This document shows positions 38,100 to 39,616 of a stretch of 64,000 nt of DNA, one piece after another. The position numbers and the translations under genes were made by a program. The stretch lies in the NCBI RefSeq assembly GCF_018257575.1, contig NZ_JAERJP010000008.1:62188-126187 (forward strand), read 5' to 3'. The stretch is from Tatumella sp. JGM91 (GTDB lineage Bacteria; Pseudomonadota; Gammaproteobacteria; Enterobacterales; Enterobacteriaceae). Position 1 is the stretch's first letter. Every line of letters starts with the position of its first letter. The notes under the pieces were generated by a model, which did not search any database, was not told the DNA's origin, and worked only from the letters and a program-made list of their open reading frames with translations.

Positions 38100-38112
38100 T
38101 TAGTATTCAATA

Positions 38113-38141
38113 GCAGCCAGTCACAACCCTGTGCTGGCTGC
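38113..38141. repeat. Strong hairpin after degS
   Basis: GCAGCCAG (38113-38120) pairs with CTGGCTGC (38134-38141), with an inner CAC / GTG extension. No T-run on either side. Probably the degS mRNA 3' end. Confidence 0.6.
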
Positions 38142-38334
38142 ACTCTCTGTCCCAGCCTGGTAATCCGCGACCTGTTTCATCATTGTCTGACTTTTTATCC
38201 AGATTAACCCCCACTTATCCGGCCGGCACTGTCCATTATTTTCACTGTCAACGCCCTGCAGACAGCAGAGCGAATACGCTATCCTTCGGTCAGCTACAAT
38301 ATAAAAAACTGCGAAAAAATGCTTATTTAGTAAT

Positions 38335-38364
38335 TTGGACTCTCAGGGTTTTATTTGTTAGAAT
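38335..38364 (+). promoter_or_regulatory. Probable argR promoter
   Basis: TTGGAC (38335-38340) and TAGAAT (38359-38364), 18 bases apart, followed by GC-rich CCGCGCC. Placed 120 bases before the argR start. The earlier part of this 384-base interval (38142-38330) shows no gene and no piece of mdh. Confidence 0.5.
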
Positions 38365-38406
38365 CCGCGCCTTGTATTATCCCGCCCCTTGATACCAACA
38401 CCACGC

Positions 38407-38444
38407 ATTGCATAAAAATTCATCCAGGTGCATAATAATGTAAT
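38407..38444. promoter_or_regulatory. Pair of ARG boxes (autoregulation of argR)
   Basis: Two 18-base boxes, 38407-38424 (TGCAT-AAAA-ATTCA core, nine of ten consensus positions) and 38427-38444 (TGCAT-AATA-ATGTA core, weaker), two bases apart. ArgR hexamers bind such tandem boxes, and argR represses itself in E. coli. Confidence 0.75.
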
Positions 38445-38483
38445 TGTCTCTGCGGGATCCTCTTTAAACAAACATGGTAGCCT

Positions 38484-38954
38484 ATGCGAACCACCTCTAA
38501 ACAAGAAGATTTAATCAGGGCTTTTAAAGCACTGCTAAAAGAAGAAAAGTTTAGTTCTCAGGGTGAGATTGTTGTTGCTCTGCAGGACGATGGCTTTACT
38601 AACATTAACCAGTCTAAAGTCTCAAGGATGCTGACCAAATTCGGCGCAGTACGTACCCGTAATGCAAAAATGGAGATGGTCTATTGTCTCCCCGCTGAAC
38701 TTGGCGTACCGACCACCAGCAGTCCGCTCAAAAACCTGGTATTAGATATTGATTATAACGATGCACTGATTGTTATTCATACCAGTCCTGGTGCGGCACA
38801 ATTGATTGCAAGATTACTTGATTCATTAGGAAAAGCGGAAGGGATCCTCGGTACCATTGCCGGCGATGACACTATTTTCGTAACCCCTTCCAGAAGCTTT
38901 ACCGTGAAAAAACTCTACGACGCCATTCTGACGTTGTTTGAACAAGAGCTCTGA
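38484..38954 (+). CDS. argR: Arginine repressor ArgR
   Basis: Arginine-dependent hexameric repressor of arginine synthesis genes, also a cofactor in cer-type recombination. 156 residues: winged helix DNA-binding domain (about 1-75, with [18 protein letters not shown]) and the C-terminal domain with arginine-binding [13 protein letters not shown]-rich stem CCCCCGG...CGGGGGG follows the stop at about 38963-38990, without a T-run. Confidence 0.97.
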
Positions 38955-38999
38955 GTCTCTGTCCCCCGGCCTCAGCCGGATGTCGGGGGGAATAAAGGC

Positions 39000-39076
39000 T
39001 TTCTGCTTTCTGCTTTCTGCTTTCTGCTTTCTGCTTTCTGCTTTCTGCTTTCTGCTTTCTGCTTTCTGCTTTCTGC
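39000..39076. repeat. Heptanucleotide tandem repeat, 11 perfect copies of TTTCTGC
   Basis: 77 bases of TTTCTGC repeated 11 times without error, preceded by GC of a partial copy. It lies 45 bases after argR in a 398-base gap before yhcN. No long open frame crosses it. A unit length not divisible by three and the perfect copies point to recent expansion by slipped-strand mispairing, so copy number may vary between cells. Confidence 0.97.
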
Positions 39077-39156
39077 AGAGATAATCACTCAGGAAACTAT
39101 GAAGCCAGCATTACACATCAACCAAACAGCACAAATTGATAAATTGTTATATGCCT

Positions 39157-39195
39157 ATGTTTTAAATGTAAAAATAACATCATTGTTTAAAACAT
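39157..39195. repeat. 10-base inverted repeat upstream of yhcN
   Basis: ATGTTTTAAA (39157-39166) and TTTAAAACAT (39186-39195), separated by 19 bases, in AT-rich DNA about 100 bases before the yhcN -10 element. It could be an operator or a hairpin; no protein can be assigned. Confidence 0.4.
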
Positions 39196-39295
39196 GGTCA
39201 TCTTTTAGTTGAATTTGTTATAAAAAATATCAGGTAAACGGTTACATTTGAAAAAACATTATTAGCAATGTATTAATTTCTTACGTTACCAGACC

Positions 39296-39323
39296 TATAA
39301 TGCGCTTCGTGATCTGAATCACA
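39296..39323 (+). promoter_or_regulatory. yhcN promoter with CRP-like site
   Basis: Perfect -10 TATAAT at 39296-39301, with no good -35. At 39308-39323 CGTGA-TCTGAA-TCACA matches the CRP consensus TGTGA-N6-TCACA at nine of ten positions. The site covers the predicted start, a position where binding would repress. It can also be read as an imperfect FNR site. Confidence 0.5.
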
Positions 39324-39352
39324 AAAATGAATAAATCAACGAGGAATAAATT

Positions 39353-39616
39353 GTGAGTATAAAAGCCGGTCTGGCTATGATGGGTGTACTTTCCGCACTG
39401 TCGTTTGGTGTATCTGCTGCACAATCAGTAACCAGCGAACAAGCACAAGCGATGCAGTCTATCGGTGTTATCTCTGTCAGTGGTCTGGACGCTTCTCCTT
39501 CTGAGATCAGTGAACAATTAAGTCATAAAGCAGATGCAATGGGAGCAACGGCCTACCGTATCACGGAAGCCTATATGAACGGTAATTATCACGAGACTGC
39601 AAGTATCTACAAATAA
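39353..39616 (+). CDS. yhcN: YhcN-like DUF1471 stress protein
   Basis: Small periplasmic protein of 87 residues of the YhcN/BhsA/McbA (DUF1471) family; E. coli YhcN is induced by acid and peroxide. Signal peptide MSIKAGLAMMGVLSALSFGV with cleavage after VSA, then GVISVSGLDASPSEISEQL, ATAYRITEAY and a final HETASIYK. It uses a GTG start at 39353, 9 bases after GAGG. The symbol rests on position next to argR and N-terminal likeness; other paralogues are similar. Confidence 0.85.
   Translation: MSIKAGLAMMGVLSALSFGVSAAQSVTSEQAQAMQSIGVISVSGLDASPSEISEQLSHKADAMGATAYRITEAYMNGNYHETASIYK

Follow-up and report, generated by a model that had tools for sequence, protein, structure and literature searches.

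A slippage-type heptamer array in a candidate Rho-loading zone behind argR of Tatumella sp. JGM91

Between argR and yhcN of Tatumella sp. JGM91 lies an uninterrupted run of the heptamer TTTCTGC, and the locus raises the question of what kind of repeat this is, how it came to stand behind argR and whether it acts on either of its neighbours. We analysed it within a window, the whole stretch of 64,000 nucleotides of DNA in which it lies. The reading we prefer, put forward tentatively and as just short of an even chance, is that the array is a slippage-born minisatellite that occupies part of a candidate Rho-loading zone and possibly still serves as one. Gene order in the window is degQ, degS, argR, array, yhcN and then, on the opposite strand, a gene that we take to be aaeB-like; the annotation of E. 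coli K-12 gives degQ, degS, mdh, argR, yhcN. The mdh gene is absent between degS and argR in the window (38100-38483) and in the congener G005 (L172 15551-15915; L317). The window's genome also carries two more ArgR-like genes (G000:C1:59161-59601 and G000:C49:15759-16199, with 59% and 29% identity). The features of the locus are:

38484..38954, + strand: argR coding sequence, 156 aa (open reading frame; E. coli K-12 gene order apart from mdh)
38962..38990, + strand: G+C-rich hairpin behind argR, then GAATAAAGG, without a T run (RNA fold of the first 60 nt and of 38940-39120; sequence)
38994..39162, + strand: C-rich, G-poor zone, a candidate Rho-loading zone (composition, compared with other species and with gene ends)
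38998..39076, + strand: perfect heptamer array of 11.3 copies, with TTTCTGC x11 at 39000-39076 (sequence, repeat scan)
39296..39301, + strand: TATAAT, probable -10 hexamer of yhcN (conserved across six congeners; presumed promoter role; not listed by the consensus scan)
39353..39616, + strand: yhcN coding sequence, 87 aa, GTG start (open reading frame; E. coli K-12 gene order)

The sequence bears out the 11 mismatch-free copies reported in the earlier note at 39000-39076, and with partial copies included the perfect period-7 run extends over 38998-39076 (11.3 copies, 79 nt). It is the sole perfect tandem repeat with a period of 5-12 and a length of at least 18 nt in the window, and its head-to-tail copies go beyond chance, the longest tandem in five mononucleotide shuffles of the window being 16-18 nt. 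Two distances given in the same note also hold: the gap between argR and yhcN measures 398 bases (38955-39352), and the claimed distance of 220 bases to the yhcN promoter corresponds to 219 bases from the array end to the start of TATAAT at 39296-39301. Situated between the two genes and at this distance from the -10-like hexamer, the array lies neither in a coding sequence nor in a promoter, where a phase-variable repeat, whose copy number switches expression, would be expected. The unit is, as had likewise been claimed, free of stop codons in all frames on both strands, and the list of open reading frames contains a 48-codon frame with a TTG start that spans the array. That this open frame encodes a small repeat protein is an idea to which we give practically no credence, as the frame begins at a TTG within argR, is open merely because the unit has no stop, and would in the congeners meet other units or none.

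We scanned 2.01 Mb from five genomes (457,694 bases of G000, the window's genome, including the window; 400,000 of G005; 354,866 of G004; 400,000 each of G022 and G251) for perfect arrays with a period of 4-20, at least 2.9 copies and at least 20 nt. The scan yielded 25 arrays (four in G000, seven in G005, four in G004 and five each in G022 and G251), of which 11 had been known beforehand, with some stretches picked for them. Such arrays are hence not rare in this genus, contrary to what the earlier note supposed for enteric chromosomes in general. Six of the arrays have a period of 6, ten a period of 7 and nine a period of 8, and none of period 4-5 or 9-20 occurred in the 2.01 Mb from the five genomes; among the 14 found without prior knowledge, six have period 6, two period 7 and six period 8. 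Three hexamer arrays are located inside open reading frames of at least 137 aa, a fourth hexamer and six heptamers fall wholly within short, possibly spurious frames of 64-169 aa, and the remaining arrays lie outside open reading frames, except for the one of L228, which overlaps the end of an 86-aa frame. Conspicuous single cases are a perfect TGGCTG x34 at the end of a 137-aa frame (G022 L208 18811-19014) and three successive arrays, CAACAGC x7.7, CCGAAAA x4.3 and CAAGGG x12.8 (G005 L173 7593-7786), ahead of an open reading frame that we take to resemble an integrase. The argR array is one of these 6-8-bp slippage-type repeats, a class common between genes in the genus.

Within the genus, TTTCTGC itself recurs in a single further species, G002, where 6.4 copies stand 50 bases upstream of an open reading frame of 142 aa. 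At G002 L002 1497-1846, GCAGAAA x6.4 is directly followed by 2.4 copies of a 121-bp repeat. A pattern search allowing up to three mismatches found arrays of TTACTGC, TTCCTGC and TCTCTGC in congeners. Runs of at least four consecutive units of TNNCTGC, a pattern picked after the array was seen, are present in five of the six species of the genus and, across the family, in 14 of the 290 genomes searched (as TTACTGC, TGACTGC, TTCCTGC, TACCTGC, TGCCTGC and others), and the reversed pattern in one genome only (G082) among the matches listed; single TNNCTGC units are 2.3 times commoner than reversed ones in the 2.01 Mb sampled (8059 versus 3456). One place with a TTACTGC array is common to G000 (8.6 copies) and G005 (6.4), and a second is common to G000 (8.4), G005 (7.3) and G003 (6.1). 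Between species, each represented by one genome, array length therefore differs at the same place, as in a VNTR, both behind argR and at the two TTACTGC places. In the account we favour, replication slippage would have produced a minisatellite (VNTR) of this 6-8-bp class.

Heptamer arrays are also found at contig ends (G002:C1, G082:C6, G082:C105, G261:C67); the longer arrays are thus probably points at which draft assemblies break. Long arrays being hard for short-read assemblies, such contig ends in draft genomes lend some weight to an assembly artefact with wrong or invented copies. We nevertheless regard an artefact as extremely unlikely, since the array as assembled measures 79 bp and is internal to a contig of 139,881 bases, away from its ends, and since G005, with a main contig of 4.49 Mb, also has arrays of this class.

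Repeats of this kind have precedents. According to PMC4692102, which cites a survey of 2007, many bacterial genomes contain heptameric repeats in excess, and polymerase slippage is suggested as a cause. The arrays resemble GGGNATC of Xanthomonas and GGGGA(T/C)T of Nostoc in having a 7-base unit, in being mostly intergenic with many loci per genome, in a unit typical of the genus, and in a place often kept between species at variable length (PMC4692102). They differ from them in that the units are more varied between loci (6-8 bases) and carry no G-runs and thus no quadruplex: G-quadruplex heptamers have G runs of at least 3 per unit, whereas TTTCTGC/GCAGAAA contains no GG. The TAACTGA repeats of marine Beggiatoaceae (PMC4679880) are likewise perfect intergenic heptamers at many loci, but have a different unit, two to six copies and a position mostly just before start codons, while the window array stands behind a gene. 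The VNTR loci that serve for strain typing by MLVA in Enterobacteriaceae and plant pathogens are short-unit tandem arrays mutable by slippage as well. The array belongs to an already known kind of bacterial heptamer repeat, in an interesting place. From the 3' region of argR a small RNA, ArgX, is known in Lactococcus (PMC7821165, PMC9438474); nothing points to a small RNA of this sort at the window argR. The search for known RNA families gave one match, to a nematode snoRNA (E 0.8, far under the gathering score).

Directly behind argR, G000 has TTTCTGC x11.3, G004 has GCATTCCC x6.4, G002 has 2.6 copies of the same GCATTCCC octamer and G005 has TTCCTGTG x6.8; no array is found there in G001 and G003 (two of the six species of the genus). 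With different units or none in the congeners, the window array looks young and replaceable. Of the 176 argR loci gathered, 170 are distinct and 91 include yhcN. In six of these 91 syntenic loci, from three genera, an array of 2.9 copies or more lies no further than 250 bases past the argR stop: three of the six belong to species of the window's genus, two to species of genus g18 and one to G251. The arrays of g18, TCCTCAGC x9 and CCCCTCAG x4.1, are clearly related to each other, and G251 has ACCTCAA x5.4, CAAACCC x22.4 and CTTGCC x11 in a row (L248 2159-2502, with argR set on the + strand). Read on the argR strand, seven of the eight units in the six loci contain more C than G and one contains equal numbers. 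With the window's own species excluded, two of five congeners have an array of at least 2.9 copies here, compared with about 6.5% of long 3' gaps in the stretches sampled (P 0.037); that background rate is rough, as known arrays guided the choice of some stretches, and the test was conceived after seeing the data, so that a hot spot of array birth behind argR is only suggestive.

The same comparison bears on an effect on yhcN, which the earlier note had proposed. The array does lie upstream of yhcN and on the same strand, and its copy number could in principle tune the yhcN promoter through spacing or DNA bending. However, the sequence on the yhcN side can be aligned across congeners whether these carry other arrays behind argR or no array at all, and the -10-like hexamer, whose core CTATAAT is present in six of six aligned congeners, is 219 bases away. 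We know of no regulator site at the array and consider tuning of yhcN very unlikely.

What the argR loci share is composition. At +40..+100 past the argR stop, C exceeds G in 90 of the 91 argR-yhcN loci, as against 18 of 51 other gene ends of the same loci and 47-49% per genome of 273 background gene ends (gap of at least 200 bases, four genomes); these loci are related and their counts not independent draws, and after thinning to less than 85% argR identity 55 of 56 have more C than G. The 85 syntenic loci without an array average 31.7% C and 14.3% G over this interval, an excess that is gone by about +220. Mean pairwise identity at the zone is 0.355 by automatic alignment, against 0.76 in the last 150 bases of argR and 0.62-0.64 at +280..+400. 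Composition is thus kept where there is little conservation of sequence, which makes a constraint on the place itself probable. Replication skew explains little of this, the GC skew of the whole window strand being -0.03, only a slight C excess.

A G+C-rich hairpin was found in 84 of the 91 loci, and in five of these 84 a run of four T or more lies within 3 nt of it. E. coli K-12 shows the same layout, with AAAATG after the hairpin and C-rich sequence beyond (19 C and 8 G at +40..+100). In the window, too, the order of an intrinsic terminator, a hairpin and directly thereafter a T run, is not what stands behind argR, the strong hairpin at 38962-38990 being followed by GAATAAAGG. The consensus scan, which found two sites where 1.1 were expected, listed a weak intrinsic-terminator-like site at 38984-39005 with 7 pairs, 3 of them G-C, whose T-rich tail comes from the first repeats. 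A trade-off between T runs and C excess was rejected: the C excess is the same in species with at least 5 T after the hairpin (18) and in those with fewer (66), so that species with a T-rich tail show no smaller excess. Every sampled 78-nt stretch of the window zone, starting from +39 to +130 behind the stop, holds 17-21 C and 10-14 G. The stretch of about 70-80 nt or more with C above G that characterizes Rho terminators is thus present behind the window argR, though weaker than at other checked argR loci: C minus G amounts to 6 in 60 nt, the 79th percentile of the background, while the 95th-99th percentiles are reached by the eight further argR loci compared. Folded alone, the array RNA is unpaired in the centroid structure and reaches a minimum energy of -9.4 kcal/mol, compared with -6.3 for shuffles (z -2.5, better than 199 of 200); a hairpin around the array stronger than chance was rejected (z -0.68).

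PMC6407284 and PMC9160355 describe Rho-utilization sites as RNA that is rich in C and poor in G over at least 70-80 nt. The argR end resembles the terminators with rut sites or C>G bubbles presented there in its C-rich, G-poor stretch of at least 78 nt behind the stop and the missing T run after the hairpin; it departs from them in that part of the candidate zone is a perfect tandem repeat. The published rut rule, in a simplified form, accepts 82 of the 91 argR ends but likewise 21 of the 51 control ends and 141 of the 273 background ends; with C/G of at least 2 it accepts 69 of 91 argR ends versus 42 of 273 background ends. For regularly spaced C, one every 11-13 nt, a stretch behind the window argR passes at C/G 2.0, and 141 of 273 background ends pass at C/G above 1. 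The kept composition is a stronger argument for a Rho terminator than the rut rule. Among the matches listed, the literature search returned no paper on Rho and argR of enterobacteria.

From these observations we infer birth of the array by slippage, binding of Rho with termination, and tolerance of copy-number change. The array would sit in a Rho-loading zone behind argR, formed by a hairpin without a U-tract and then C-rich, G-poor RNA. Because Rho needs composition and no set sequence, a pyrimidine-rich run of heptamers with more C than G could take the place of what stood there before without loss of Rho loading, and Rho loaded on the array would stop argR transcription ahead of the yhcN promoter. 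A hairpin can protect an mRNA end that is trimmed back after Rho termination, and the one behind argR may mark such a trimmed end. Of the earlier proposal, slippage and an effect at the argR 3' end both fit the data, but mRNA 3' structure is a less likely route than Rho loading. Evidence against a role of Rho is found in the weak window zone, the slightly better fold of the array, the weak terminator-like site at 38984-39005, the many controls that pass the rut rule, the undiminished C excess of species with a T-rich tail and the lack of a C>G preference in arrays at other genes.

Several of these findings suit a neutral slippage-born repeat in non-coding DNA with no effect on argR or yhcN, whose C-rich sense strand mirrors its local source sequence, an explanation that we take seriously and hold to be somewhat less than an even chance. 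Even without selection, copying from a C-rich zone would yield C-rich units; the C excess of the window zone is modest, congeners carry other units or none behind argR, many like arrays exist elsewhere, and no strand rule holds for those at other genes. What speaks against neutrality is the composition kept in all but one of the 91 loci without a kept sequence, which makes a constraint on the place probable.

The strand comparison was made by eye on 13 arrays against the nearest gene end pointing at them. Of the 25, the four argR arrays did not enter it, nor did L228, which the contig end truncates, the arrays inside open reading frames (L208, L303, L316), or three arrays of L173 and one of L217, at which no gene end clearly points. 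C exceeds G in four (L227, L299 twice, L301), G exceeds C in five (L155, L164, L176, L180, L190), and the two are equal in four (L159, L199 twice, L206). L155/L176 and L164/L180 are orthologous pairs, and L164/L180 become C>G if a small open reading frame beside the array is ignored. There is no rule either way for arrays at other genes, and the idea that all such arrays are Rho sites gained no support. A broader proposal, in which Rho-loading zones, constrained in composition and free in sequence, are nurseries for recurrent 7- and 8-mer arrays (behind argR, with unrelated units in three genera) and copy number is a slippage-driven dial of Rho termination between argR and yhcN, appears improbable to us.

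Returning to the reading of a minisatellite in a candidate Rho-loading zone, it predicts Rho-dependent termination behind argR throughout the Enterobacteriaceae, also in E. coli K-12, at a terminator recognisable by kept composition without kept sequence. If a tandem repeat can indeed replace this zone, the locus would be a natural terminator showing that Rho reads composition and not sequence, and repeats behind genes would gain a possible effect.
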